In this document: piece by piece, positions 16,122-40,123 of the stretch
Numbering within the stretch: the first letter of the stretch is position 1
How the letters are laid out: each line of letters starts with the position of its first letter
Assembly: GCF_039531105.1 (NCBI RefSeq)
Contig: NZ_BAAAPK010000001.1
Coordinates: forward strand, 1,116,001-1,180,000
Source: Microbacterium lacus
GTDB taxonomy: Bacteria; Actinomycetota; Actinomycetes; Actinomycetales; Microbacteriaceae
Length of the DNA: 64,000 nucleotides
Direction: 5' to 3'
Translations under genes and position numbers: made by a program
Notes under the pieces: model-generated
Database searches by the model: none
Seen by the model: the letters and a program-made list of their open reading frames with translations, nothing else
Told to the model about the DNA's origin: nothing

Positions 16122-16951
16122 ATCGCGCCGATCACTCGCGCCAGCAGTGACGAGATGACCGGGCCGGCGGCCTGCCCGGCCTCCATGACCTCCTGATGGC
16201 TGAGCGGGGTGGTCTGGATGCCGGCCGCCATGTTCGTGATGAGCGAGAAGCCCAGGATCTCCATGCCCGACTGCCGTGCGGCGATCGCCTCGAGCGCCGT
16301 GGACATCCCGACGATGTGGCCGCCGATCGTCTTCGCCCACTGCACCTCGGCCGGGGTCTCGTACTGCGGACCGGTGAACTGGCAGTAGACGCCCTCGTCC
16401 AGGCTCGGGTCGATCGAGCGCGCGAGGTCGCGCAGGCGCATCGAGTACAGATCGGTCAGGTCGATGAACGTGGCGCCCTCGAGCGGGGTCGCGGCGGTGA
16501 GATTGATGTGGTCGCTGATGAGCACCGGAGTGCCGGGCTTCCAGTGCGGCTTGATGCCGCCGGCGCCGTTCGTGAGCACCATGGTGCGCGCTCCCGTCGC
16601 GGCGGCGGTGCGCACGCTGTGCACGACCCGGCGGGGGCTGCGCGTCTCGTAGTAGTGGGTGCGGGCGCCGATGATCAGGACGTTCTTGCCGCGTGGGGTG
16701 CGGACGCTGCGGAGCGTTCCGACGTGCCCTTCCAGGGCGGGCTTGCTGAATCCGGTGACCTCGGTCGCAGGGATCGTCGCGACGGTCTCGCCGATGAGCT
16801 CCGCCGCACCTCCCCAGCCGCTGCCGAGGGTGAGGGCGATGTCGTGGCGGTCGACTCCGGTGAGGCGCGCGATGTCCGCCGCCGCCTGTGCGGCGATCGC
16901 GAACGGGTCTGCGGCGGGGTCGTCGAGCGACGTGGCGAGTGTGTCTGGCAT
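16118..16951 (-). CDS. deoD: Purine-nucleoside phosphorylase
   Basis: Trimeric-class (PNP/MTAP) phosphorylase that splits inosine or guanosine to the base and ribose-1-phosphate. The 277-residue protein shows the phosphate loop TLGSGWGGAAE near residue 43 and the GARTHYYE motif. It also has VLTNGAGGIK, GPQYETPAEVQW, and VGMSTALEAIAARQ with the base-binding region close after. ATG 16951 is used. It is coupled to the mutase gene by a GTGA overlap. The gene is divergent from the LpdA-type gene across about 107 bases in which I see no clear motif. It complements the nucleoside genes at the left end of the window. Confidence 0.94.
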   Translation of the reverse strand: MPDTLATSLDDPAADPFAIAAQAAADIARLTGVDRHDIALTLGSGWGGAAELIGETVATIPATEVTGFSKPALEGHVGTLRSVRTPRGKNVLIIGARTHYYETRSPRRVVHSVRTAAATGARTMVLTNGAGGIKPHWKPGTPVLISDHINLTAATPLEGATFIDLTDLYSMRLRDLARSIDPSLDEGVYCQFTGPQYETPAEVQWAKTIGGHIVGMSTALEAIAARQSGMEILGFSLITNMAAGIQTTPLSHQEVMEAGQAAGPVISSLLARVIGAM

Positions 16952-17058
16952 GCACCCACTCTAGGAACGCGCGCGCCCCGGAGCCACCCGCGACGCGGGA
17001 CGCGGCATCCGATCTCCGCGATGTCGTGGGGGCGGGCCGCTCCTGAAAGGATGGAGGC

Positions 17059-18507
17059 ATGTCTTTGAGCTTCGAGCGCACCCAGAGCGTCGCGATCATC
17101 GGCGGAGGGCCTGGCGGATACGAGGCCGCGATCGCCGCCGCCCAACTCGGTGCGGAGGTCACCGTCGTCGAGCGGGCAGGGATCGGCGGCTCGGCTGTCA
17201 TCACGGACGTGGTGCCGTCGAAGACCCTGATCGCGACGGCCGACGCCGCCGTCGCGATCTCGCAGGCGAGTGATCTCGGCGTGCAGCTGTTCGCCCGCGG
17301 TCAGGAGGGGAAGCCGCTCAAGCCGGAGATCGCGATCAACCTGTCCGCCGTCAACAAGCGGCTCCTCTCGCTCGCGCGTCAGCAGTCCGACGACATGCGC
17401 GCGTCGCTCGTGGAGGCGGGCGTGCGCATCATCTCCGGTCACGGGCGCCTCGACAGCGACAACGCGGTCGTCGTCTCGACCGGCCCGAAGGGCACCGATT
17501 TCGATCGGATCGAGGCGGACACCCTCGTGATCTCGACCGGGTCGTCGCCTCGGATCCTGCCGACCGCCCGCCCCGACGGGGAGCGGATCATGACGTGGAC
17601 CCAGCTGTACGACATGACCTCGGTACCCGAGCACCTCATCGTGGTCGGCTCGGGTGTGACGGGTGCCGAGTTCGCCTCCGCCTACATGAACCTCGGCGCG
17701 AAGGTGACGCTGATCTCGTCGCGCGACCAGGTGCTGCCGGGCGAGGACAAGGACGCGGCCGCGGTGATCGAGAAGGTCTTCAAGCGCGGGGGGATGACCG
17801 TGCTGTCGAAATCCCGCGCCGACAAGGTGGAGCGCACGGAGGACGGCGTGATCGCGACGCTGTCCGACGGGCGCACGGTCGAGGGCAGCCACTGCCTGCT
17901 CGCTGTCGGGTCGATCCCGAACACCGCGGGACTCGGTCTCGAGGAGGCGGGTGTCCAGATGACGGATTCCGGTCACATCCAGGTGAACCGCGTGGCGCGC
18001 ACCTCGGTTCCCAACATCTACGCGGCGGGGGACTGCACGACGTTCGTGCCGCTGGCCTCGGTCGCCTCGATGCAGGGACGCACTGCCGTGTTCCATGCGC
18101 TCGGCGACGTCGTGATCCCGCTCGAGCGGCGGCGGATCACCTCGAACATCTTCACCGCGCCCGAGATCGCCACGATCGGCTGGTCCGAGCAGGACATCGT
18201 CGAGGGTCGGATCGACGGTGTCGTCCACAAGCTCCCCCTCGCGGCGAATCCCCGCGCGAAGATGACCGGCTCGAAGGACGGCTTCGTGAAACTGCTGGCC
18301 CGCAAGGGCAGCGGCACCGTGATCGGCGGGGTGATCGTGGCCCCGCGCGCGTCAGAACTGATCTACCCCGTGGCGATCGCGGTCGAGCGCCGCCTCACGG
18401 TGGATCAGCTGTCGCGCGTGTTCGCGGTGTACCCGTCGCTGACGGGCAGCATCACGGATGCCGCCCGTGCGATGCACATCGTGGACATCGCGAACGAGGA
18501 CGGCTGA
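17059..18507 (+). CDS. lpdA: LpdA-type NAD(P)H:quinone reductase lacking the redox disulfide
   Basis: A 482-residue flavoprotein of the pyridine nucleotide-disulfide oxidoreductase fold. It has an N-terminal FAD loop IIGGGPGGYEAAIAAAQLG at residues 13-31, a central NAD(P) loop VVGSGVTGAEFAS, a second FAD motif YAAGDCT, and a dimerisation domain. Where dihydrolipoamide dehydrogenases have two cysteines (GGTCxNxGCxPSK), this one reads GGSAVITDVVPSK, so disulfide chemistry is impossible. This is the known hallmark of mycobacterial LpdA (Rv3303c), a quinone reductase. The C-terminal His-Glu pair of lipoamide dehydrogenases is also not evident. It is convergent with accA3, and a repeat array fills the gap between them. 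Confidence 0.9.
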   Translation: MSLSFERTQSVAIIGGGPGGYEAAIAAAQLGAEVTVVERAGIGGSAVITDVVPSKTLIATADAAVAISQASDLGVQLFARGQEGKPLKPEIAINLSAVNKRLLSLARQQSDDMRASLVEAGVRIISGHGRLDSDNAVVVSTGPKGTDFDRIEADTLVISTGSSPRILPTARPDGERIMTWTQLYDMTSVPEHLIVVGSGVTGAEFASAYMNLGAKVTLISSRDQVLPGEDKDAAAVIEKVFKRGGMTVLSKSRADKVERTEDGVIATLSDGRTVEGSHCLLAVGSIPNTAGLGLEEAGVQMTDSGHIQVNRVARTSVPNIYAAGDCTTFVPLASVASMQGRTAVFHALGDVVIPLERRRITSNIFTAPEIATIGWSEQDIVEGRIDGVVHKLPLAANPRAKMTGSKDGFVKLLARKGSGTVIGGVIVAPRASELIYPVAIAVERRLTVDQLSRVFAVYPSLTGSITDAARAMHIVDIANEDG

Positions 18508-18526
18508 CCCCGCCGCCTCCGCGCAT

Positions 18527-18698
18527 CCCCCGAGACGGCGGGTTCCCCGCCGAGATGGCGGGTTCCCCGCCGAGATGGTCGGCACCACCTCGGCGGAAGA
18601 TGCACCGTTTCGGCGGAGAGGGCACCATCTCGGCGGGAGGGGCACCATCTCGAGAGGAAACCCACAACCTCGGCGGGGGAGGGCGACCACCTCGCGAC
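18527..18698. repeat. 20-bp-periodic array of CCGCCGAGATGG units with internal inversion
   Basis: Units of the core CCGCCGAGATGG lie at 18527, 18547 and 18567 on the + strand. The complementary core CCATCTCGGCGG, with variants, lies at 18585, 18605, 18625, 18645, 18665 and 18687. Spacing is exactly 20 bases within each set, apart from 18 bases at the inversion and 22 before the last degenerate copy. The array fills the gap between the convergent lpdA and accA3 genes and can fold into many alternative hairpins. It has no unique spacers, so it is not a CRISPR. Confidence 0.9.
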
Positions 18699-21297: not shown

Positions 21298-22569
21298 GTG
21301 GATGCCGGAGACGAACTCGACCTCGATGTGACCAGCGTGGCCCACGGCGGTGTGTTCGTCGGCCGGGTCGAGGGGCGCGTCGTCTTCGTTCCGGATGCGA
21401 TCCCCGGCGAGCGGGTGCGCGTGCGACTCACCGACGTCGGCAAGAAGTCGTTCTGGCGCGGCGAGGTGCTCGACGTCCTCGACGCGTCACCGCACCGGCG
21501 CCCGCACATCTGGGCGCAGGCCGATGTGACCGTCGCCCCCGACCGGCGCCCGGGTGGTGCGGACTTCGGTCACATCGAGCTCGCGCACCAGCGTTCGCTC
21601 AAGGTCGAGGTCCTTCAGGACGCGCTGCGCCGATTCGGCGGCGTCGATGCCGGGGACGTGCGGATCAGCGCGGCCGGCGCCGATGAGACCGCCGATGGCC
21701 GCGGGTGGCGCACCCGCATCGGTCTGCATGTGGACGACGCGGGCAACGTCGGCCCGTTCGCCGCGCGCAGTCACACCGTGGTGCCGGTGCGCGACCACCC
21801 GCTGGCGACCCCCGAGGTCGAGGCGGCGGCGCTCGCGCTGGGTCAGGGCGCGCCCGGTCGCATCGACCTGGTGCAGCCGGCGGACGGCCGCGTGCGGGTG
21901 ATCCCGCGACCGGATGCCGGAGCACGGACGCCCCGGGAGGCGCGGGAGGTCGTCGTCGAGCGTGTCGGCACGCGCGAGTTCCGTGTGGACGCCGGCGGGT
22001 TCTGGCAGGTGCATCGCTCCGCGGCGGCGACGCTGGACGCCGCGGTCCGCGGAGCGATCCGGGGCGCCGTCGGTGCGCCGGATGCCGAGGGTCGGCACCT
22101 CGACCTCTACGGGGGTGTGGGCCTGTTCGCGGCCGTGCTGGGCGAGCTCGGGGCCGCGCACATCACCTCGGTGGAATCGGATGCCCGCGCCACGGAGCAC
22201 GCGGGGGAGAACCTCGCGGAATGGGTCGGCGCCCGCGCGGAGACCGCGCGGGTCGACCGCTTCGTCACCCGCCTCCTCGCCGACGCCTCCACCCGGGAAC
22301 GGGAGCGGCTCTCGCGCGGCGTGACGGTGCTGGACCCCCCACGCTCGGGAGCAGGGCGGTCGGTCGTGCAGGCCGTGGCGGCGTTGCATCCGGCGGCCGT
22401 CGTCTACGTCGCGTGCGATCCGGTCGCCCTCGCGCGGGACGTCGCGATCTTCGGTGACGCCGGCTACGAGCTGCGCGCAGTGGAGGCCTTCGACCTGTTC
22501 CCCAATTCCCACCACGTCGAGGCTGTCGCGACCCTCGTGCCCGCGGGCTCCGCCGAACCGCGCGGCTAG
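21298..22569 (+). CDS. TrmA/RlmD-family RNA (uracil-5-)methyltransferase
   Basis: A SAM-dependent tRNA or rRNA methyltransferase of 423 residues. The N-terminal 60 or so residues form a TRAM domain (LDVTSVAHGGVFVGRVEGR then VFVPDAIPGERVRVRL). The SAM-binding loop is HLDLYGGVGLFAAVLGELG, the catalytic region VTVLDPPRSGAGRS, and the nucleophile Cys is in YVACDPVALARDVA. GTG 21298 starts 47 bases from the divergent maf start. No CxxCxxC iron-sulfur cluster is evident. The last ten codons and stop (PAGSAEPRG and TAG) form one copy of a 36-bp direct repeat that recurs 6.6 kb downstream, past the Pse island. Confidence 0.92.
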   Translation: MDAGDELDLDVTSVAHGGVFVGRVEGRVVFVPDAIPGERVRVRLTDVGKKSFWRGEVLDVLDASPHRRPHIWAQADVTVAPDRRPGGADFGHIELAHQRSLKVEVLQDALRRFGGVDAGDVRISAAGADETADGRGWRTRIGLHVDDAGNVGPFAARSHTVVPVRDHPLATPEVEAAALALGQGAPGRIDLVQPADGRVRVIPRPDAGARTPREAREVVVERVGTREFRVDAGGFWQVHRSAAATLDAAVRGAIRGAVGAPDAEGRHLDLYGGVGLFAAVLGELGAAHITSVESDARATEHAGENLAEWVGARAETARVDRFVTRLLADASTRERERLSRGVTVLDPPRSGAGRSVVQAVAALHPAAVVYVACDPVALARDVAIFGDAGYELRAVEAFDLFPNSHHVEAVATLVPAGSAEPRG

Positions 22570-22573
22570 GCTG
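22538..22573 (+). repeat. Left 36-bp direct repeat of the Pse island
   Basis: A 36-base block beginning TGCCCGCGGGCTCCGCCGAA covers the last codons and stop of the RNA methyltransferase gene plus four bases. It recurs at 29128-29163 with a single difference (eighth base G here, C there), which is synonymous in the methyltransferase frame. Similarity stops on both sides of the block. The two copies are 6,590 bases apart and enclose the pseudaminic acid genes. Confidence 0.92.
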
Positions 22574-22579
22574 GATGCG

Positions 22580-23260
22580 ATGAACAGTGCAGTCCACGAC
22601 GAGGTGAGCGCCCAGGAGGAGGCGTACTACGACATCCTGCGACCCCTCGTCTCGACGTACTCGCGAACTCCTCACATCCGATCGGTCGCGGTGGTCGGCA
22701 ATCAGCCCCTCGCTCCGTCAGCTCAGCGCGCCGCGGTCATCGATGCGGCCGATCTGGTCTTCCGAGTGAACGGCTTCCGCCTCGACGAGGACGAACCGAC
22801 GGTCGGACGCCGCGCCGATGTCGTCGTCTTCAACCGCGGCGTTCGCCCGACGCCGTGGTTCTTTCAGGATTACACGCGGCGGCTCTACCTCATGATCGAG
22901 CCGGGCCGGATGCATGAGGAGAACCCGAAGATCCCCGATTTCTGGCCCCGTGACCTCGGCATCGTCACGCTCGCGAACCGCGAAGTGATCGTCCCTCTCA
23001 ATCGCGTGATCGGCCAGCAGAGCGCCGTCGACGGACTGTGGGCGACGACGGGCACGACTATGCTCTGGACGGCGACGCGTCTGTTCCCGAACGCCACGGT
23101 CGATGTCGCGGGTCTGTCCTTCGTGGATGCGCCTGAACAGAGGACATGGAGCCATGCATTCGGAGATCCGTCCGCAGTCGGGCCGGAGCATCTCATCGCC
23201 AACGAAGGCCGCCTGGTCCGCGACTGGATATCCTCCGGGCGCATTCGATTCCACCGTTGA
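22580..23260 (+). CDS. Sialyltransferase-like (GT29 family) protein
   Basis: A 226-residue protein with the pattern of family 29 sialyltransferases. An L-motif-like start, SVAVVGNQPLAPSAQRAA, is followed by IDAADLVFRVNGF. A later S-motif-like TTGTTMLWTATRLFPNATV and a VS-like HLIANE (His, four residues, Glu) are also present. GT29 enzymes use CMP-activated nonulosonic acids. Since the following genes make CMP-pseudaminic acid, a pseudaminyltransferase role is a good inference but is not proven. No signal peptide or transmembrane helix is visible, so it should act in the cytoplasm. ATG 22580 is six bases after the left direct repeat and is the first gene of the island. Confidence 0.7.
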   Translation: MNSAVHDEVSAQEEAYYDILRPLVSTYSRTPHIRSVAVVGNQPLAPSAQRAAVIDAADLVFRVNGFRLDEDEPTVGRRADVVVFNRGVRPTPWFFQDYTRRLYLMIEPGRMHEENPKIPDFWPRDLGIVTLANREVIVPLNRVIGQQSAVDGLWATTGTTMLWTATRLFPNATVDVAGLSFVDAPEQRTWSHAFGDPSAVGPEHLIANEGRLVRDWISSGRIRFHR

Positions 23261-23282
23261 TCACCCTCGTCCCGGGAGTACG

Positions 23283-23672
23283 ATGCTCAACCGTCTGAAG
23301 CGCAGACTCGATCGCGCGGTCCTTCACCGCGTCGAGAAGGAGATGTCCGAACAGCTCGACGCGCAGCTGCAGCGGCGACAGCTCAGCCCGGATTCGGTGA
23401 CGCGCCGTCTTGCCGACTACGAGGCGAGGCTCGGCGGTCTGCAAGCCGACTACAGCTTCCTCCGGTCGGAATTCGATCGGCTGGCCCCGCAGCTGTCCGC
23501 GCTGGAGTACCGCTTCGAGCGGCTCCGGGATCGCGTCGGCGACGACGTTGCCGACGACGGTGCGGCACTCCGGCAGGCGCAACTCGAACATGAGCGCGCG
23601 CGGATCCGGCTCGAACTCGCGTCCCACTACGAGGAACGCCTGCGACGTCTGGAGGGCGGCGCCCATGCGTGA
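23283..23672 (+). CDS. Small coiled-coil protein of unknown function
   Basis: A 129-residue, highly charged protein rich in Leu, Arg, Glu and Gln in heptad-like spacing, predicted almost wholly helical and coiled coil. The basic start MLNRLKRRLDRAVLHRVEKE is followed by long helices (residues about 40-125). No signal peptide, transmembrane segment or known domain is recognised. It is placed between the GT29-like gene and pseB, 22 and 36 bases from its neighbours, so it is almost certainly part of the Pse operon. It might be an oligomerisation or tethering partner of the transferase. I cannot name the family. Confidence 0.65.
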   Translation: MLNRLKRRLDRAVLHRVEKEMSEQLDAQLQRRQLSPDSVTRRLADYEARLGGLQADYSFLRSEFDRLAPQLSALEYRFERLRDRVGDDVADDGAALRQAQLEHERARIRLELASHYEERLRRLEGGAHA

Positions 23673-23708
23673 TGCCCGCACGCAGCACGTCGACGGATCG
23701 AGGTCGGC

Positions 23709-24689
23709 ATGAGCGTCCTGAAGAACAGTTCTGTTCTGATCACAGGAGGCACCGGTTCGCTGGGGAAGGCGCTCACCCGCGAACTGCTGGCCCACCACGA
23801 CGTGGCTCGTCTGGTGATCCTCAGCCGCGACGAACTCAAGCAGTTCGAGATGCGGCAGCAGTTCGGGGACGATCCACGGCTGCGGTGGTTCCTCGGAGAC
23901 ATCCGCGACATCGCGCGACTTCGGCGTGCGATGCACGGTGTGGACTACGTGATCCACGCTGCGGCGCTGAAGCAGGTCGATACGGCCGAATACAACCCCT
24001 TCGAGTTCGTCGAGACGAACGTGAAGGGTTCTCAGAACGTCATCGAGGCGGCGATCGACTCCGGCGTCCGTCGCGTTGTGGCGCTGTCCACTGACAAGGC
24101 GTCCAGCCCGATCAATCTCTACGGAGCGACCAAACTGGCAGCCGACCGGATGTTCATCGCGAGCAATCACTACGCGGCGGCGTATCCGACGCGATTCGCG
24201 GTCGTCCGGTACGGCAACGTGTCGGGCTCCCGGGGCAGCATCGTGCCCAAGTGGCGGCAGATGGCCCGTGACGGCGTCCCGCTTCCGATCACCGACCGAC
24301 GCATGACGCGGTTCTGGATCACGCTGCCGCAGGCAGTCCAGTTCGTCCTCAGCTCCTTCGATGTCATGAGCGGCGGGGAGCTGTACGTGCCGAGGATTCC
24401 GTCCGTGCGGATCACGGACCTGGCCGAGGCTGTCGCGCCGGGAGCAGAGATCGTGGAGATCGGAATCCGACCGGGCGAGAAGCTTCACGAGGAGATGATC
24501 GCCGAGGATGACGCACGCCGCACGCTCATCCTCGGTGACCGATTCCTCGTCCAGCCCCACCTCAGCGGCTGGGGATACCGGGCCCCCGACGCCGCCGATT
24601 CGTTTCCAGAGGGCGTGAGCTACCGCTCTGACCGAAACGATCGGTGGCTCGACGTGGCGGAGTTGCGGACCATTCTGGCTGAGGACTGA
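23709..24689 (+). CDS. pseB: UDP-GlcNAc 4,6-dehydratase / 5-epimerase (inverting)
   Basis: The first step of pseudaminic acid synthesis, converting UDP-GlcNAc to the 4-keto-6-deoxy-L-arabino sugar nucleotide. The soluble 326-residue protein is of the short PseB/FlaA1 type, without the membrane domain of the PglF/CapD class. The NADP loop is LITGGTGSLGKALTREL at residues 10-26. The catalytic region is ALSTDKASSPINLYGATK, in which TDKA is the family signature, and the substrate segment RYGNVSGSRGSIVP follows. The tail IRPGEKLHEEMI is characteristic. ATG 23709 is used. It is followed 11 bases later by pseC. Confidence 0.92.
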   Translation: MSVLKNSSVLITGGTGSLGKALTRELLAHHDVARLVILSRDELKQFEMRQQFGDDPRLRWFLGDIRDIARLRRAMHGVDYVIHAAALKQVDTAEYNPFEFVETNVKGSQNVIEAAIDSGVRRVVALSTDKASSPINLYGATKLAADRMFIASNHYAAAYPTRFAVVRYGNVSGSRGSIVPKWRQMARDGVPLPITDRRMTRFWITLPQAVQFVLSSFDVMSGGELYVPRIPSVRITDLAEAVAPGAEIVEIGIRPGEKLHEEMIAEDDARRTLILGDRFLVQPHLSGWGYRAPDAADSFPEGVSYRSDRNDRWLDVAELRTILAED

Positions 24690-24700
24690 AGGATGATCTC

Positions 24701-25828
24701 GTGATCCCATACGGCCGTCAATCGATCGACGAGTCCGACGTGCACGCGGTGGTCGCCGCCCTTCGCTCGGATTGGCTGACGACCGGCCCGGCCGTGGAGG
24801 CGTTCGAGGCGGCTGTCGCCGATCTCGCCGGCACGGCACGGCCCGCCGTCGCCGTCACCAGCGGGACGGCTGCGTTGCACGTCGCCTACGCGGCAGCCGG
24901 CGTCCGTTCCGGCGTCAAGGTGATCACCACTCCGTTCACCTTCGCGGCGACGGCGTCGACGGCCGCTCTGCTCGGCGGACGGGTCGTCTTCGCGGACGTG
25001 GAGGAGGCGACCGGGAACATCGATGCGGATGCCGTCGAGGCCGAGCTGGACGAGGACACCGCCGTCGTGGCGGGCGTGGATTACGCGGGCGTCCCGATCG
25101 ACGCGGCCCGGCTCCGACCACTCGCGAATGCAGCCGGAGCTCTGCTCCTGGAAGATGCGGCGCATTCGCTGGGGAGCACGCTCGACGGTCGGCCGGTCGG
25201 CTCCCTGGCGGACATCACGACCTTCTCGTTCTTCCCGACCAAGAATGCGACGACTGCCGAAGGCGGAGCGGTTGTCACTGACCGCTCCGATCTGTGGGAG
25301 AGATCCCGCTCCTTCCGAAACCACGGACTCGTCCGTGAACCTTCGCTGCAGAGATACCCCGACGAGGGCGCCTGGCATCAGGAGGTCCACGAGTTCGGGC
25401 TCAACTACCGACTTCCCGACGTACTCGCCGCGCTCGGTTCGAGTCAGCTGCTGCGCCTGCAGTCCTTCAAGGATCGTCGCGCCGCGATTCACGCTCGGTA
25501 TGGGGCGGCGTTCGAGGGTCTGGATGGGGTCGTGCTTCCGTCGGCGCCGCCGCGTGCTGATCCGATGTGGCATCTGTACCCTCTTCGCGTCCCGTCCGAG
25601 CGGCGACGGAACATCTTCGATGCGCTCCGCGCGGACGGTATCGGCGTGCAGGTCAATTACGTACCGGTGTACTGGCATCCCGTGTTCGAAGACCTCGGCT
25701 ACCGGCGCGGCATGTGCCCCGTCGCCGAGGACTGGTACCGCCGAGAGATCTCGCTGCCCATGCATGCCGGACTGAGCGACGACGAGGTGGACCGAGTGAT
25801 CGAGTCCGTCCGGTCGGCGCTTCGCTGA
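24701..25828 (+). CDS. pseC: UDP-4-keto-6-deoxy-sugar aminotransferase
   Basis: A PLP enzyme of the DegT/DnrJ/EryC1 family that installs the 4-amino group on the PseB product. It has 375 residues. The start MIPYGRQSIDESDVHAVV is close to the known PseC opening. SGTAALHVAY holds the PLP phosphate contact, and EDAAHSLGST has the ring-stacking Asp-Ala-Ala-His. The PLP lysine is K181 in FSFFPTKNATTAEGG. The start is GTG 24701, 11 bases after pseB. Its stop TGA overlaps the ATG of the next gene. The nearest alternative, a LegC-like aminotransferase, is less likely given PseB and PseG beside it. Confidence 0.92.
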   Translation: MIPYGRQSIDESDVHAVVAALRSDWLTTGPAVEAFEAAVADLAGTARPAVAVTSGTAALHVAYAAAGVRSGVKVITTPFTFAATASTAALLGGRVVFADVEEATGNIDADAVEAELDEDTAVVAGVDYAGVPIDAARLRPLANAAGALLLEDAAHSLGSTLDGRPVGSLADITTFSFFPTKNATTAEGGAVVTDRSDLWERSRSFRNHGLVREPSLQRYPDEGAWHQEVHEFGLNYRLPDVLAALGSSQLLRLQSFKDRRAAIHARYGAAFEGLDGVVLPSAPPRADPMWHLYPLRVPSERRRNIFDALRADGIGVQVNYVPVYWHPVFEDLGYRRGMCPVAEDWYRREISLPMHAGLSDDEVDRVIESVRSALR

Positions 25829-26568
25829 TGATGCCCGCGCGCGTCGTCGCGATCGTCCAGGCCAGGATGGGATCGACCCGCCTGCCCGGGAAGGTGCTCC
25901 GCCCGCTGCGTGACCGTCCGGTTCTGGCATGGGTGGTCCGCGCCGCGCGGGCAGCCGAGTCTGTTTCCGACGTCGTGATCGCGACCTCCACGGAATCTCG
26001 CGACGACCCGCTGGTCCATTTCGCAGAGGAGATCGGCTGCCGGGTGATCCGTGGCAGCGAGACCGATGTGCTCTCCCGCTTCGCCCTCGCCGCCGACGTC
26101 ACCGGCGCCGACGCGATCGTGCGGCTCACTGCCGACTGTCCTCTGCTGGATCCGCGGCTGATCGACCAGGTCGTGGCGCTCTGGTCGGCTGACCCGCACC
26201 TGGATTACGTGTCGACGACTCTGGTGCGATCTCTGCCTCGAGGGCTCGATGTCGAACTCGTCTCGAGGAGTGCCCTCGACCGTGCCGATGCATCCGCAGG
26301 CTCTCACCACCGTGTGCACGTGACGAGCTGGCTGTATCGCGAGGGCTCGACGGAACGCACGGCAGGGATCGTCGTGCAACCCGATCACTCGCGTCTTCGG
26401 GTCACTCTCGATACAGCGCAGGACGCGGCATTGCTCGATGCGCTCGTTCCCCTGCTTCCCACCGACCGGCCGCCGTCCTGGCGCGATGTCGTGTCCGTTC
26501 TCTCCACACGTCCCGACCTGGTCGCGATCAACGCGGACGTGCGGCAGAAGCCCCTCGACGAAGGATGA
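25828..26568 (+). CDS. pseF: CMP-pseudaminic acid cytidylyltransferase (SpsF/PseF family)
   Basis: Activates the nine-carbon sugar with CTP. The 246-residue protein starts MMPARVVAIVQARMGSTRLPGKVLR, the CTP-binding loop of this cytidylyltransferase family. It then shows LRLTADCPLLDP-like VRLTADCPLLDPRLI, the metal-binding segment. The first ATG (25828) overlaps the pseC stop as TGATG, and a second ATG follows at once; either may be used. The sequence is nearer the SpsF branch than classical NeuA, so the CMP-sugar specificity rests on the surrounding pathway. It ends in a four-base overlap with the PseG-PseH gene. Confidence 0.88.
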   Translation: MMPARVVAIVQARMGSTRLPGKVLRPLRDRPVLAWVVRAARAAESVSDVVIATSTESRDDPLVHFAEEIGCRVIRGSETDVLSRFALAADVTGADAIVRLTADCPLLDPRLIDQVVALWSADPHLDYVSTTLVRSLPRGLDVELVSRSALDRADASAGSHHRVHVTSWLYREGSTERTAGIVVQPDHSRLRVTLDTAQDAALLDALVPLLPTDRPPSWRDVVSVLSTRPDLVAINADVRQKPLDEG

Positions 26569-28049
26569 CCGGTCGGGTCGCGCCGATGACGGCGGTGTTG
26601 TTGCGCTGCGATGCGACGACGGGTGGTGGCCTCGGCCACCTGGCGCGGTGTGTGGCCCTCGCTCAGGCGTTGCGGACACACGGGGTGCACGATATCCACC
26701 TCTCCGGGGCGGTGACGACGGAACTCGGTGAGCGGATGCTGGAGCCAGCGGGCCTGCAGAGGCACGGGCCGATCGACGACCCGGAGCAGTTGATCGCACT
26801 GGCAGAGGACGTCGGCGCCGGTGTGCTCCACATCGATCACTACGGCCCCTTCCCGGGGCTGCGCGAAGCCGGTCGCGCGCGAGGAATAGTGACGTCGACT
26901 GCGGTCGATGACGACTTCGGCAAGCGTCCCGCAGATGTGATCGTCGACGGCTCGCCGCGTGCGCTCGTTCGCTTCGACCCGCTGTACGCCACTTCCTCGG
27001 TCGCGCTCGGCCCGAAGAACCTCGTCATGCGCGAGGGGTTGGGGTCGGCTCGCACCCTGCGCGAGGTCAGGCCCAGACCGCATGTGCTCGTGATGATGGG
27101 CGGAACGGATGCAGGGGGTCACGGTCCGCGCATCGCCTCGTCGATGGCCGCGATTCCGGCCGTAGGACGAGTCGGACTCGTGGCGGACGGGGTTGCCGCA
27201 GCGTCACCTGATTTCCAGGTCGTGGCCCGGAACCCGGACCTGCGGAGTCTCCTGGAGGACTGGGACGTGGTGGTCACGGGAGCAGGCACGACCGTGTGGG
27301 AACTTGCGGCATTGCAGGTGCCGATGGTCGTCGTCGGACTCGTGGAGAACCAGCGCGACCATTACGGCACGCTCGTCGGCTCAGGGCTCGCCGTCGGCCT
27401 CGGCTTCCTGCCCGACGGATCTCCGCTCGCCATCCACGAGGTCGCCGCTGCGATGGCAGACCCGCTTTCCCTGACTCGGATGGCCGAACGCGCCCGTGGT
27501 CTCGTGGACGGGCGGGGAGCGAGGCGTGTCGTTCGGACGTGGAGCGAAGAGCGGATCTCCCGATCCCGCGTCGGACTGCGCGTCCGCCCGGCGTCCGAGC
27601 GGGATGTGGGTCGTCTGTACGCCTGGCGCAACGACCCGGCGACGCGCGCAGCTTCGCGGTCCCAGGAGCCTGTGGGATGGAGCGATCACGTCGTGTGGTT
27701 CGCGGGTGCGCGCGAGGCCACGGATCGCCGCGTTCTGGTCGTCGAGAGTGACGGCGAGCCCATCGCGACGACCCGATTCGACCGACGTGATGCCGATGAG
27801 TGGGAGTTCTCGATCACGCTCGCGCCGGAGGCGCGGGGCCGGGGATGGGCGAAAGCCGTCGTCGCGGAATCCGTGGCGGAATTCCGTTCGCGATCGTCCT
27901 CGACCGCGCTCCTGCTCGCCGACGTCAGGACTTCGAACGATGCCTCGAACGCCGTTTTCCAAAGTCTGGGATGGCGGCCCGGCACCCCCGGCGCCGGATG
28001 GATGCGGTGGAGTCTCTCGGGCTCGGAGGTCAGAGAAGATCCCACCTGA
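26565..28049 (+). CDS. PseG-PseH fusion: UDP-sugar hydrolase and N-acetyltransferase
   Basis: A 494-residue protein that joins two pathway steps. Residues 1 to about 325 match PseG, the GT-B-fold hydrolase that removes UDP from the diacetamido-trideoxy-altrose nucleotide. The motif GGGLGHLARC at residues 20-29 holds the catalytic His, and DVVVTGAGTTVWELAALQVP is the nucleotide-binding end. From about residue 335 a GNAT domain follows (LRVRPASERDVGRLYAWRND, later ITLAPEARGRGWAKAV with the acetyl-CoA loop). It matches PseH, which acetylates the 4-amino group. The fusion would pass product directly from acetyltransferase to hydrolase. ATG 26565 overlaps pseF by ATGA. The 3' end overlaps the convergent pseI by 20 bases. 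Confidence 0.88.
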   Translation: MTGRVAPMTAVLLRCDATTGGGLGHLARCVALAQALRTHGVHDIHLSGAVTTELGERMLEPAGLQRHGPIDDPEQLIALAEDVGAGVLHIDHYGPFPGLREAGRARGIVTSTAVDDDFGKRPADVIVDGSPRALVRFDPLYATSSVALGPKNLVMREGLGSARTLREVRPRPHVLVMMGGTDAGGHGPRIASSMAAIPAVGRVGLVADGVAAASPDFQVVARNPDLRSLLEDWDVVVTGAGTTVWELAALQVPMVVVGLVENQRDHYGTLVGSGLAVGLGFLPDGSPLAIHEVAAAMADPLSLTRMAERARGLVDGRGARRVVRTWSEERISRSRVGLRVRPASERDVGRLYAWRNDPATRAASRSQEPVGWSDHVVWFAGAREATDRRVLVVESDGEPIATTRFDRRDADEWEFSITLAPEARGRGWAKAVVAESVAEFRSRSSSTALLLADVRTSNDASNAVFQSLGWRPGTPGAGWMRWSLSGSEVREDPT

Positions 28050-29070
28050 GCGGCGTGCCCTTGCGGACGTCCGAACGGAATCGCCGCCCCTGCACGCGGT
28101 CCCACTCCGCGGGCGCGAGACCTCCCGCCGGTCGGATCGAACGAACGGTGTCCGAGGTGACCTCTTCGCCTGCGGCGACGTCGCGGACGACCCACAGCGA
28201 CCGAGCAAGACGACGGCTCTCCGATTCGCCCGCCGACACCGCCGGCGTCGCGCTGCCCAAGGATTCCCACACCCGTCGAGCCTCGACGGCCAACGACTTC
28301 ATCTCGCTCGGCTCGAGCGAGAACGCGGCATCGACGCCGCCTTCGGCCCGCGACATCGTCATGTGCTTCTCGATCACCGTCGCACCCATCGCCACCGCAG
28401 CCAGACTGGAACCCAGCCCCGGAGTGTGATCGGAGAATCCGACGGTCACACCGAGAGCATCGCGCAGCACCGGAATGCTGCGCGCATTGACCTCTCGCGG
28501 GTCCGCCGGATACGCGGACACGCACGACAGGAGGATGATCCCGCTTGCCCCCGCGGACGTGAGCGTGTCGATGGCTGCCGTCACTTCCTGCAGTGTCGCG
28601 GCGCCGTTCGACAGCATGACCGGCTTCCCCGTCGCGGCGACAGCGCGGAGGAGACCGGTGTCGCCGATCTCCAGCGAGGCGATCTTGTAGGCCGGGGCTT
28701 CGAGTTCCTCCAGCAGGGTGACGGCCGTCGCGTCGAATGGGCTCGAGAAGGGGATCAATCCCCTGCGGCGCGCGTGCCGGAACAGCTCCGCATGCCAGTC
28801 CCACGGCGTGTGCGCCTCCGTGTAGAGGTCGTAGAGGGTTCGTCCGCCCCAGAGGCCGTGGCCGTCGGAGATTCGGAAGGCTGCCGTGTCGGCGTCGATC
28901 GTGATCGTGTCCGCCGTGTACGTCTGGAATTTGACCGCGTCGACTCCCGCGTCCGCCGCGGCGTCGATCAGCTCCAATGCCCGGGAGAGTCGACCTCCGT
29001 GGTTGCCGGAGATCTCGGCCACCACGAACGGCGGTGATTCGGTCCCGATCGTTCGGCCTGCGATTCTCAT
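28030..29070 (-). CDS. pseI: Pseudaminic acid synthase
   Basis: Condenses the PseG product with phosphoenolpyruvate to give pseudaminic acid. The protein has 346 residues. The NeuB-type barrel begins at PPFVVAEISGNHGGRLSRAL, with AVKFQTYTADTITI, IPFSSPFDATAV and APAYKIASLEIGDTGLL. The metal and substrate loops are VGFSDHTPG and IEKHMTMSR. The last 60 or so residues are a SAF antifreeze-like domain (ARSLWVVRDVAAGEEVT). ATG 29070 is chosen over an upstream in-frame codon because it gives the family's start. Unlike the other island genes it is leftward, so it needs its own promoter near the right repeat. Its end overlaps the PseG-PseH gene tail to tail. Confidence 0.92.
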   Translation of the reverse strand: MRIAGRTIGTESPPFVVAEISGNHGGRLSRALELIDAAADAGVDAVKFQTYTADTITIDADTAAFRISDGHGLWGGRTLYDLYTEAHTPWDWHAELFRHARRRGLIPFSSPFDATAVTLLEELEAPAYKIASLEIGDTGLLRAVAATGKPVMLSNGAATLQEVTAAIDTLTSAGASGIILLSCVSAYPADPREVNARSIPVLRDALGVTVGFSDHTPGLGSSLAAVAMGATVIEKHMTMSRAEGGVDAAFSLEPSEMKSLAVEARRVWESLGSATPAVSAGESESRRLARSLWVVRDVAAGEEVTSDTVRSIRPAGGLAPAEWDRVQGRRFRSDVRKGTPLRWDLL

Positions 29071-29127
29071 GTTTCCCCTGCGCCTTCTTGCTGACCATTC
29101 AGGATACCGAGGCATGACTCACGCGCC

Positions 29128-29163
29128 TGCCCGCCGGCTCCGCCGAACCGCGCGGCTAGGCTG
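29128..29163 (+). repeat. Right 36-bp direct repeat of the Pse island
   Basis: A copy of 22538-22573 with 35 of 36 bases identical. Read in the methyltransferase frame it still encodes PAGSAEPRG followed by TAG, so it is a displaced 3' end of that gene with no gene body attached. It stops five bases before the start codon of the response-regulator gene, which suggests that in an uninserted chromosome the methyltransferase stop lay directly beside that regulator. Confidence 0.92.
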
Positions 29164-29168
29164 AACCC

Positions 29169-29843
29169 ATGACGCGCGTCGCCCTCATCGACGACCACGA
29201 ATCCGTTCGGCTCGGACTCGAGGCGGCCTGTGCGCGCGCCGACAAGGACGTCGTGTTCTCCGGCAGCAGCGTCACCGGCTATCTCGAGTGGCGCGCCTTC
29301 AGCGCGGCGCCGCCGGCCGATGTCGTGGTCCTCGACTTGACGCTCGGCGACGGCACCACCGTGACCGAGAACGTCCGCCGTCTGGTCGTCGACGGATCCA
29401 GTGTCATCATCCACAGTGTCGCCGACCGCCCGGCCGCCGTCCGAGAGGCGCTCGCGGCAGGCGCTGCGGGTGTCGTGAGCAAGGCGTCGCCGATCGGCGA
29501 CGTGATCGCCGCGGTCCGCACGGTCGCCAGCGGTGAGCCGTTGAACAACGTCGAGTGGGCGAGCGCGGTCGAGGGCGACCGGGCGTTCGCCGACGCCCAG
29601 CTCTCGGCCCGTGAGCGCGACGTGCTCCGTCTGTACGCCGCAGGTCTTCCGCTCAAGGTCGTGGCCGACCGCCTCGGGGTCGCGTACTCGACGGCGAAGG
29701 AGAACATCACCCGCGTGCGGGTCAAGTACGTCGAGGTGGGAAGGCCCGCGCCGACGAAGGTCGATCTCCTCCGCCGGGCGATGGAGGACGGGATCCTCTC
29801 CGAGCCGAACGACAGCGAGGGCGTCGGTGGTGTCGGAGCCTGA
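29169..29843 (+). CDS. NarL/LuxR-family response regulator
   Basis: A 224-residue DNA-binding response regulator. The receiver domain spans about residues 1-120, with acidic pocket residues in LIDDHESVR and the phosphoacceptor D56 in VVVLDLTLGDG. The conserved Lys is in GVVSKASP. The LuxR-type helix-turn-helix covers about residues 147-205, starting LSARERDVLRLYAAGLPLKVVADRLG. It overlaps the histidine kinase gene by about 14 bases. The start codon ATG 29169 lies just after the right island repeat, so any native upstream promoter region was either displaced by the island or lies within it. The target genes are unknown. Confidence 0.92.
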   Translation: MTRVALIDDHESVRLGLEAACARADKDVVFSGSSVTGYLEWRAFSAAPPADVVVLDLTLGDGTTVTENVRRLVVDGSSVIIHSVADRPAAVREALAAGAAGVVSKASPIGDVIAAVRTVASGEPLNNVEWASAVEGDRAFADAQLSARERDVLRLYAAGLPLKVVADRLGVAYSTAKENITRVRVKYVEVGRPAPTKVDLLRRAMEDGILSEPNDSEGVGGVGA

Positions 29844-31086
29844 GAGCACGCGCGCGATCCTCGACGACGCGTGGGGGCACATCCCGCACTCGCGCGAGAC
29901 GACGGCCGGGCTCGGATCGTTCACACGTCTACGCATCGAGCGCATCCTGTCGCTCGTGGTCGCCCTCGGCGGCCTCGCGCTCGGCGCCCAGGCCTTCCTG
30001 AACGCGCTGGGTCCGTACCAGGAGACGCCGCAGTGGCACGTGCCGCTCATGCTGATGACCTTCGTGCCGCTCGGGGCGATGCTGCTCGCGTGCGCGATCG
30101 GCCGGGGTGTGCGCCTGTTCGCGGGCATTTTCGCGGTGATCTACCCGATCACTCTCCTGCTCTGGCCGATGGCGACGGCGGGCGGGGATGCCGACCCCTC
30201 GGTCGAGCCGTGGATCTGGTACCTGGTCAACGTCGCGACCGTCGCAAGCGTGCTCGCCTTCCCGCTGATCCTGCAGGTCGTCTGGACGGTGATGGTGCCG
30301 CTGCTGTTCGGGGCGGTGCGGATGATCCAGGCAGGGTTCGCGCCGGAGTACTGGTACTCCGTGAGCCTGGACGTGTCGTTCGCCCTCATCCTCGGCGGGA
30401 TGCTCACGACGCTCGGGTGGGTCTTCCGGTCGGTCGCGGCCAACGTCGACGAGACCCGGGCGCGCGCGGTCGAGTCGTATGCGGACGCCGCAGCAGCGGA
30501 TGCCGCCGAACAGGAACGCGTCGCCGTGGCGGCGCTCATGCACGACAGCGTTCTGGCGGCACTCATCGCCGCGGAGCGCGCGCACACCCCGCGCGAGCGG
30601 ACCCTGGCCGTCGCGATGGCCCGCGAAGCCCTCACCCGCCTCGCCAACACCGAGCAGGGGTCCGAGGAGGGCAGTGACGAGCCGCGCGACCCGGAGAGCC
30701 TCGCGGACGGCATCGAGCGCTCGGCTCTCGAGCTCGGCGTCCGGCTGACGATCGAGCGCGACATCGAGCCGCTCACGCCGGCGATGCCCGGTCGGGTGGC
30801 GCGGGCACTCGTGCTCGCGTCCGCTCAGGCGATCGCGAACGCCGCACAGCACGCCGGCGGCGCGGGCCTCGCGGTGAGCGTGCGAGGGCGTGCCCGCCCC
30901 GCTCAGACGCTCATCACCGTCCGCGACACCGGTGCCGGATTCGACCTGGAGCGCGTGCCGCAGGACCGGCTCGGCATCCGTGCATCGATCTTCGCCCGCG
31001 TCGCGGCGGTCGGCGGCACGAGCGAGATCCAGTCCGACGCGCAGGGCACGACCGTGTGGCTCGAGTGGCGGGAAGGCACATCGTGA
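29830..31086 (+). CDS. Sensor histidine kinase (HisKA_3/NarX-like)
   Basis: A 418-residue membrane kinase partner of the preceding regulator. The N-terminal half has about five to six transmembrane helices (residues about 36-200) with very short loops, so it probably senses a membrane-linked or intramembrane cue. The phosphorylated histidine is H238 in VAALMHDSVLAALIAAER. The ATPase domain shows AQAIANAAQHAGGAGL (N box), VRDTGAGFDLERVPQDRLGI (G1) and a closing GTTVWLEW. GTG 29830, with GAGGG upstream, is chosen inside the regulator's 3' end. It overlaps the next membrane-protein gene by GTGA. The stimulus is not evident. Confidence 0.9.
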   Translation: MSEPESTRAILDDAWGHIPHSRETTAGLGSFTRLRIERILSLVVALGGLALGAQAFLNALGPYQETPQWHVPLMLMTFVPLGAMLLACAIGRGVRLFAGIFAVIYPITLLLWPMATAGGDADPSVEPWIWYLVNVATVASVLAFPLILQVVWTVMVPLLFGAVRMIQAGFAPEYWYSVSLDVSFALILGGMLTTLGWVFRSVAANVDETRARAVESYADAAAADAAEQERVAVAALMHDSVLAALIAAERAHTPRERTLAVAMAREALTRLANTEQGSEEGSDEPRDPESLADGIERSALELGVRLTIERDIEPLTPAMPGRVARALVLASAQAIANAAQHAGGAGLAVSVRGRARPAQTLITVRDTGAGFDLERVPQDRLGIRASIFARVAAVGGTSEIQSDAQGTTVWLEWREGTS

Positions 31087-39025: not shown

Positions 39026-40123
39026 ATGACCGCCACACTCCGGTTCATGCTCGATCAGCTCGTCGCGCCCACCGATCCCGATCTCGAAACGGCGTCTCGT
39101 GAGCTGGCGACCGCCCTGATCGACCGCGCTCCCTCCGGTTGCGAGGTCGCCGGAATCGCGCCCGCAGGTTCTCCCGCCGTCGAGATCGCCGGTCTCGCCG
39201 AGGTGCGCCGCAGCCCGCTCGCTCGTCGTGAGCTCGCGGGTGCGCTGCAACTCGGCGTCGCGAGCGGCATCGGCGGCGGCATGATCCACTCGCCGACCCT
39301 GTTCGCACCGCTGGTGAAGCACGATCGTGTTCACGACCACGACCAGACCGTCGTCACGATCTGGGATCTCGGGCCGTGGGAAGCCCCGGGCGAGTATCCG
39401 AAGGCGAGCGTGGCGTGGCAGAAGGCGATGCTGAAGCGCGCGGTCAAGCACGCCGATGCGGTCGTCGTGCCGACGCACGCGATGGCGGTGCGACTCGCTG
39501 AGATCGCGAAGCTCGGTGAGCGCATCCGCGTGATCGCGGGAGCGGCCCCCGAAGGATTCGCCGTGCCGCGCGATGATGTGGGACGCCGGCGCGAGCTCGA
39601 CCTGCCGGAGGGGTTCGTGCTGCTCTCCGGGCATCACGGCGAGTCCCTGGGCGCGGGACTTGCCGCGGTCGCCCGATCGGGTGTCGACCTTCCGGTGGTC
39701 GTGATCGGCGCTGCCGAAGGCGAGGAACCGACGATCGCGGATCAGGCTTCGGCGGCGGGTATCCCCGAACGGAGCCTGCACGTGCGCGGCGCGCTCTCCG
39801 GTGCTGACCGCGCGGCGGTCTTCGCAGGAGCGGTCGCGTTCGTCGTCGCCGATCAGCGATTCGGGCTGCCTTGGCGTGTGCTCGAGGCGTTGGCCCTCGG
39901 AGTTCCCGTGGTGGCGGCATCCTCGCCCGTGAACGACGAGGTCATCGTCGACGGCGGAGCCGTGGTGGATGCCGACCCCGAGGCACTCGGTGCGGCTCTC
40001 GCCGACGCGCTCGGGACGACTGCCGCCGCCACGCGGCTCGGCGTGCTCGCGGCCGACCGTGGCCGCGCGTTCTCGTGGCTCGGAGCCGCCGACCGGGTGT
40101 GGCAGCTGCACGCGGAGCTGTAG
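39026..40123 (+). CDS. Glycosyltransferase family 4 (GT-B)
   Basis: A 365-residue retaining GT-B-type transferase. The N-terminal half recognises the acceptor. The C-terminal half has the nucleotide-sugar pattern, with ALSGADRAAVFAGAVAFVVADQ, FGLPWRVLEALALGVPVVA and SPVNDEVIVDGG. The usual catalytic EX7E motif is modified (the first Glu is replaced within RFGLPWRVLEAL), so activity or mechanism may differ. ATG 39026 lies five bases after the LCP stop. It ends two bases from the convergent ABC ATPase gene. The donor and acceptor are unknown. Confidence 0.85.
   Translation: MTATLRFMLDQLVAPTDPDLETASRELATALIDRAPSGCEVAGIAPAGSPAVEIAGLAEVRRSPLARRELAGALQLGVASGIGGGMIHSPTLFAPLVKHDRVHDHDQTVVTIWDLGPWEAPGEYPKASVAWQKAMLKRAVKHADAVVVPTHAMAVRLAEIAKLGERIRVIAGAAPEGFAVPRDDVGRRRELDLPEGFVLLSGHHGESLGAGLAAVARSGVDLPVVVIGAAEGEEPTIADQASAAGIPERSLHVRGALSGADRAAVFAGAVAFVVADQRFGLPWRVLEALALGVPVVAASSPVNDEVIVDGGAVVDADPEALGAALADALGTTAAATRLGVLAADRGRAFSWLGAADRVWQLHAEL

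Follow-up and report, generated by a model that had tools for sequence, protein, structure and literature searches.

The locus described here raises a question of mechanism: how did a 6.6 kb group of seven sugar genes become lodged between two resident genes that are elsewhere direct neighbours, with precisely 36 bp repeated at its edges? The genes lie in a 64,000 bp stretch of the Microbacterium lacus genome (contig NZ_BAAAPK010000001.1, positions 1,116,001–1,180,000; hereafter, the window), between an RNA methyltransferase gene and a response regulator gene. They appear to direct the synthesis of a pseudaminic-acid (Pse)-type sugar, and are referred to below as the island. The source genome carrying the window is labelled G000; the other G-numbers are labels of the genomes with which it was compared. 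A previous analysis of the same DNA from its letters alone (the sequence-only reading) interpreted the repeat as the leftover of either site-specific integration or recombination with a homologous gene end, and predicted an empty site with no more than about 10 bases between the methyltransferase stop codon and the regulator. Such a site is present in a second genome of the same species. The origin that we favour is a different one: the island is probably an integrase-free cassette, present in some genomes and absent from others, that occupies a narrow slot between the methyltransferase core and the −10 box of the regulator.

A 36 bp direct repeat encloses the island

The two copies of the repeat are as follows.

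22538..22573, + strand: left copy of the 36 bp direct repeat, the same as the single copy of the block at the G087 empty site
29128..29163, + strand: right copy of the 36 bp repeat, at −41 to −6 relative to the regulator ATG

The copies match at 35 of 36 positions, and the sole mismatch (22545 G versus 29135 C) changes GCG to GCC, both of which are alanine codons in the methyltransferase frame. The left copy is made up of the last methyltransferase codons, the TAG stop (22567–22569) and GCTG; it spans −42 to −7 relative to the ATG of the first island gene, which encodes a GT29-family protein. The right copy stops 5 bp short of the regulator ATG (29169). An extension of the repeat to 43 bp (91%) was left uncounted, because it gains just 4 matches over 7 bases. 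Coordinates, direction and content, including the single synonymous difference and the right copy that abuts the regulator start, are thus as the sequence-only reading had them.

The final 28 bases of the copies are identical, and no other exact direct repeat in the window is as long; 20 first-order Markov shuffles of the window gave maxima of 16 to 18. With up to three mismatches permitted, the 3.54 Mb genome has two occurrences of this 28 bp core, both at the present locus, so the concern that the block might be a dispersed repeat unrelated to the methyltransferase gene falls away. None of the 17 inverted pairs listed for the window connects the island edges (i.e., no terminal inverted repeats were found).

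A second M. lacus genome carries the empty site

In G087, a genome of the same species, the methyltransferase stop lies 9 bp before the regulator ATG, and the block is present in one copy, identical to the left copy of G000. Around this empty site, 3,984 bp of left flank and 10,997 bp of right flank match the window at 99.2% identity, and an additional left stretch (16691–18694) aligns at 96.9%, with gaps. Differences between the two genomes are scattered across the flanks, with no clear foreign tract beside the joints. An empty allele in G087 and a filled allele in G000, set in near-identical flanks, indicate that possession of the island varies within one species, and that its edges are exact. 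This within-species polymorphism rests on two genomes of the species, the G087 assembly being a draft in 340 contigs with 86% completeness. On those two genomes the island has the properties of a variable segment: presence or absence within the species, conserved flanks and no recombinase.

Two other places stand out in the comparison of these genomes. At 39985–40108, in a flank that is otherwise near-identical, around 20 differences fall within 125 bp at the end of an aligned block, and this looks like an exchanged tract. The intergenic region 18527–18676 holds short tandem and inverted repeats of the GCCGAGATGG type, and is gapped between G000 and G087.

Most of the examined junctions in the genus are empty

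A search of 366 genus genomes for the regulator gave matches in 353; 150 places were listed, and 146 of those were examined. These 146 junctions consist of 110 loci read by script, 35 read by eye, and G146. The methyltransferase and the regulator are both found in 108 of the 110 script-read loci, the other two (G000 and G364) ending before the methyltransferase. The 35 junctions read by eye are those at which a match to the junction pattern overlaps the regulator place; the pattern matched in 101 genomes, and matches situated elsewhere were not counted. G100, G101, G121, G178 and the unlisted regulator matches lie outside the survey.

The junction is empty in 143 of the 146 examined cases, and filled in G000, G146 and G364. 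Wherever both genes are present in the script-read loci the methyltransferase adjoins the regulator (108/108), the two being separated by 161 bp or less. The empty-site model of the sequence-only reading therefore extends across the genus, and the scenario that would have undermined it—relatives that all carry the island, with no empty sites—does not apply. The same reading had suggested a search for other cargo at the site; none besides the Pse island was found at the 146 junctions.

The repeated block most likely doubles as the regulator promoter

Each copy of the block ends in a −10-like hexamer.

22567..22572, + strand: TAGGCT, −10-like box in the left copy, 7 nt before the ATG of the GT29-family gene; predicted promoter element
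29157..29162, + strand: TAGGCT, the −10-like box in the right copy, assigned to the regulator, whose ATG follows after 6 nt

A TANNNT motif is found 5–8 nt upstream of the regulator ATG in 106 of 108 genus loci, compared with 10 of 5500 random positions. The part of PMC3160421 drawn on here describes a leaderless-type arrangement in Actinobacteria, with TANNNT some 12 bp ahead of the start codon, and the motif before the regulator start is kept across relatives in just this manner. The methyltransferase stop, 8–10 nt before the regulator ATG, overlaps the position of the −10-like box in 37 of 108 loci; in the window, the stop at 22567–22569 coincides with the start of the box. Judging from motif and position, the block is most likely the core promoter of the regulator as well as the tail of the methyltransferase gene, and both boxes are predicted to be active. 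The overlap of tail and promoter means that an insertion should survive only if the regulator keeps its box and the methyltransferase core remains whole. All three filled loci (G000, G146 and G364) retain a −10-like box with the regulator, together with the whole methyltransferase core. The sequence-only reading did not notice a promoter role for the block; its overall interpretation is borne out for the empty site, and is not supported as regards site-specific integration.

Two other species carry the island at the same site

G146 and G364, which belong to two further species, carry an island of the same gene order at the same methyltransferase–regulator site. Their island ends display no direct repeat (the best ungapped joint-to-joint matches are of 8–9 bases). 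Relative to the nearest empty relative, about 7 bp are replaced at the joints in G364 (versus G220), and 15 bp in G146 (versus G245). A tree of the methyltransferase and regulator nests every filled genome among empty ones, with support of 0.995 for G364–G220 and 1.0 for G146–G245. On this tree, which has 72 tips, the distribution of the island corresponds to either three gains, or one gain and at least 15 losses. The three islands that share the site form a clade in the PseB/PseC/PseI tree (support 1.000), beside the islands of G634 and G536.

PseI is present in 25 of the 366 genus genomes. The surroundings were read in 10 of the 22 PseI-bearing genomes other than the three with filled sites, and no methyltransferase, regulator or kinase match was found there. 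A PseI contig scan with very general patterns gave 80 listed loci, none of them titled Microbacterium. In G536, which belongs to another genus, a same-order island is found beyond the same two-component operon, with the third gene of the operon on one side and accD on the other (L199, 6790–19991); PseI of the island type is present in one of five genomes of that genus. The recurrence of one neighbourhood with varied joints suggests an island family that is tied to its neighbourhood, and joints that are unlike the products of a site-specific recombinase.

How the island may have joined

The reading that we favour—an integrase-free cassette in the slot bounded by the methyltransferase core and the −10 box of the regulator—can be set out in steps. 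The cassette would consist of genes for pseudaminic-acid-type sugar synthesis and a transferase of GT29 fold, with no recombinase of its own. The slot would measure around 40 bp, in the empty state of which the methyltransferase tail and stop would double as the core promoter region of the regulator. When foreign DNA joined in G000, the 36 bp slot would have been copied, rather than having bases deleted from it, so that the methyltransferase tail and regulator promoter were retained, and the first island gene gained a copy of the promoter. Entry was most likely through recombination at short homologies or of the illegitimate kind, or else through one crossover with a circle bearing slot sequence. 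The repeat would also permit exact loss, giving an empty site like that of G087; the joining mechanism is one that we infer, and G087 may either have lost the island or never have had it. Since the methyltransferase tail varies by species, the duplication either arose in the species of G000, or stayed matched through exchange with empty alleles.

Elements of this process have precedents. According to the available portion of PMC2884548, repeats of 5 bp or more flank 10–18% of the variable segments in three species, and illegitimate recombination is proposed for many of them; a circle that enters with homology to its target mostly duplicates part of that homology, in the excerpted text of PMC3240628. 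As far as those extracts go, the present island resembles the segments of the two reports in its presence and absence within a species, its lack of a recombinase, its short flanking repeat, and a target duplication of the single-crossover kind. It differs from them in that the duplicated piece is a gene tail plus the next promoter region, in that the cargo is a 6.6 kb sugar pathway, and in that three species are filled.

Several observations weigh against the favoured reading. Firstly, the duplications given in that part of PMC3240628 measure 109–950 bp, far above 36 bp. Secondly, G146 and G364 are filled without a repeat, so duplication is not required for residence there; the box lies 9–10 nt before the first island gene in these two genomes, so spacing is also looser. 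Thirdly, six differences from G087 fall in the final 345 bp of left flank (1.7%, against an average of 0.8%), a mild rise that makes a short exchanged tract on the left side conceivable. Fourthly, the related island of G536 is sited beyond the operon, at a place that does not involve a slot of this kind. Finally, islands that form one clade also fit a single old insertion followed by at least 15 losses, or the spread of a filled allele. The last two possibilities are considered below.

Alternative explanations

Among the alternatives, the one that survives best—while still being unlikely—is that the island is old and vertically inherited, with the empty sites (including that of G087) resulting from exact deletions on repeated occasions, and the repeat copies being kept alike by exchange with empty alleles. 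The island clade, ((G146,G364),G000), is compatible with the host tree, the ratios of island to core distance are alike for the three genome pairs (0.41–0.51), and the repeat would render deletion exact. One mismatch in 36 exceeds the expectation for an insertion younger than the G000–G087 split, and so mildly favours an older event, unless the mismatch was introduced at the joining itself. The cost of this history is at least 15 losses, against three gains, on the 72-tip tree. The overlap of stop and −10 box seen in 37 of 108 loci occurs in many empty lineages, and deletions would need to restore it each time. G+C content at third codon positions (GC3) also remains lower in the island (0.65–0.84) than in usable flanking genes (0.88–0.93). 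Divergence at fourfold sites is mostly greater in the island than in the flanks; it was judged to be near saturation in both, and was not used for dating. The accD and BPL rows were excluded from both of these comparisons.

Movement of a filled allele from species to species, through ordinary homologous recombination within the methyltransferase and regulator genes, is rather improbable, even though it would account for the same site and a single island clade in three separated lineages. Identity plots show no drop beside the joints in the comparisons of G364 with G220 and G146 with G245, and none that is clear between G000 and G087. A diverged donor has therefore left no tract in the flanks; no tract would be expected if the donor belonged to the same species or a very closely related one. 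Transfer from a diverged species by way of the flanks was rejected on these plots; recombination with a homologous gene end, the second option of the sequence-only reading, is likewise not supported where the donor is a diverged one.

We rate site-specific integration as improbable too. Here, the 36 bp copies would be attL and attR, the 3' end of the methyltransferase gene attB, and the integrase either lost or acting in trans. In its favour, both edges carry a copy of a gene 3' end and an exact empty site exists, comparable to the actinobacterial island PAISt at the 3' end of bacA in Streptomyces, in the consulted part of PMC4057263, and seven integrase-family places in the genome could act in trans. 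The nearest of these places (PF00589) is 178 kb away, and the island proteins contain no recombinase domain, which agrees with the earlier observation that no integrase lies inside. The block is confined to the present locus in the genome, a 27 bp piece of it has no exact match in viral contigs, and no different cargo was found in 146 junctions. The absence of a nearby integrase, the two filled loci without a repeat (G146 and G364) and their differing joints together disfavour integration at an att site. The same portion of PMC4057263 gives PAISt, which likewise has direct repeats at its edges, a tyrosine recombinase gene and an 8 bp palindromic site; here there is no nearby integrase, and two filled loci are free of the repeat. 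In short, no recombinase lies in or beside the element and edge repeats are not found in all insertions at the site, as they would be for an integrase-driven island; nor do the island proteins include a transposase domain, or inverted repeats join the edges, as for a transposon.

An assembly artefact in either genome is scarcely credible: G087 is a draft, but its contig extends ~6 kb to the left and ~11 kb to the right of the joint, the G000 locus lies inside a 3.28 Mb contig, two other species have this gene order at the corresponding position, and junctions are usually empty.

Two candidate carriers were also tried and rejected, with PseI as the query. Among 94 plasmid records, none reached 60% identity or more (the best, from Nonomuraea gerenzanensis, showed 56.9%), and a search for phage carriers returned just three weak phage records.

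The island genes and the likely destination of the sugar

The genes of the island and its flanks are listed below.

21298..22569, + strand: RNA methyltransferase gene (TRAM domain, RlmD/TrmA type); Pfam TRAM and tRNA_U5-meth_tr above cut-offs
22580..23260, + strand: gene for a GT29-family (sialyltransferase-fold) protein of 226 aa; PF00777 at 28.5 bits, cut-off 23
23283..23672, + strand: small gene (129 aa) without a family match, which adjoins the GT29 gene in other clusters too
23709..24689, + strand: pseB; TIGR03589 at 462.6 bits, cut-off 407.75
24701..25828, + strand: pseC, assigned with weaker support; TIGR03588 at 403.6 bits, slightly under the cut-off of 423.5
25828..26568, + strand: pseF-like cytidylyltransferase gene; PF02348 at 99.6 bits, TIGR03584 at 33.5 bits, under the cut-off of 205.7
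26565..28049, + strand: fused pseG-pseH-like gene; TIGR03590 at 76.6 and TIGR03585 at 31.9 bits, both under cut-off; GNAT domain PF13302
28030..29070, − strand: pseI, convergent with the other island genes; TIGR03586 at 429 bits, cut-off 340.25
29169..29843, + strand: response regulator gene (receiver and LuxR-type HTH), by domain matches
29827..31086, + strand: sensor histidine kinase gene; HATPase_c at 29.9 bits, cut-off 26.4; MacS-family model under cut-off

The best NCBIfam match of the methyltransferase is RlmD (TIGR00479, 142 bits, under the cut-off of 183.55). Within the island, PseB and PseI score above their curated cut-offs, PseC falls slightly below, and F, G and H fall well below; the pseC, pseF-like and pseG-pseH-like assignments draw on these weaker scores and on gene order. 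The repeat copies do enclose the Pse genes, as the sequence-only reading held, along with the GT29 gene and the small gene. The set resembles known Pse biosynthesis clusters in that pseC, pseF-like and pseG-pseH-like genes adjoin a pseB and a pseI that both exceed curated cut-offs. It departs from them in the fusion of pseG and pseH, in the GT29 gene at its head, and in the lack of a flagellin match in the three island-bearing Microbacterium.

The GT29 protein has both a PF00777 match and a sialyltransferase fold: in a Foldseek search with its structural model (pLDDT 91.9), ranks 1–30 are all GT29 sialyltransferases, ST6GalNAc2, ST8SiaIII and ST6Gal1 among them (E-values down to 1.1e-07, query TM-scores of 0.48–0.60). 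Homologues are frequent in Microbacterium and extend to other Actinobacteria; 253 were found, 120 of which were listed, and the structure alignment took 53. The GT29 gene adjoins Pse genes in G634, in G536, and in five of ten other Microbacterium clusters read, while no GT29 homologue stands beside the Pse genes in four other family clusters read. From this neighbourhood and the modelled fold, the protein is likely to be a CMP-pseudaminic acid transferase. The 129 aa protein, whose gene adjoins the GT29 gene in G000, G146, G364, G536 and five other Microbacterium clusters, is perhaps a partner protein. Match and fold agree with bacterial GT29 sialyltransferase-like proteins reported in PMC5811610; the section of that report used here names Gram-negative marine bacteria, whereas the present protein is actinobacterial and encoded beside Pse genes. 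A literature search on bacterial GT29 and pseudaminic acid gave no such enzyme named in titles among the matches listed, and a second search gave nothing on pseudaminic acid in Microbacterium by title and abstract opening.

Flagellin (PF00669) was found in one of 12 genomes searched, that of G634; the other 11, including G000, G087, G146, G364 and G536, gave no match. Given that no flagellin match was obtained in the island-bearing Microbacterium, the pseudaminic-acid-type sugar is most likely destined for wall glycan, capsule or protein.

Implications

The cargo points to decoration with a pseudaminic-acid-type sugar by an enzyme of sialyltransferase fold, in bacteria without a flagellin match, where the sugar would be placed elsewhere on the cell. 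As a tentative generalization, the overlap of gene tail and promoter may provide a slot in which integrase-free cassettes repeatedly dock: tolerated joinings would keep or copy the slot, with twin promoters where it is copied and clean loss by way of the repeat, and the Pse cassette of three Microbacterium species and G536 would amount to regulator-linked switching of surface sugars through gene gain and loss. At the locus itself, filled and empty alleles in one species illustrate how foreign DNA may enter a tight junction and leave the neighbours unharmed, by copying of the tail and promoter. If the promoter reading is true, insertion by duplication would wire the cargo to the promoter of the resident regulator in a single step.

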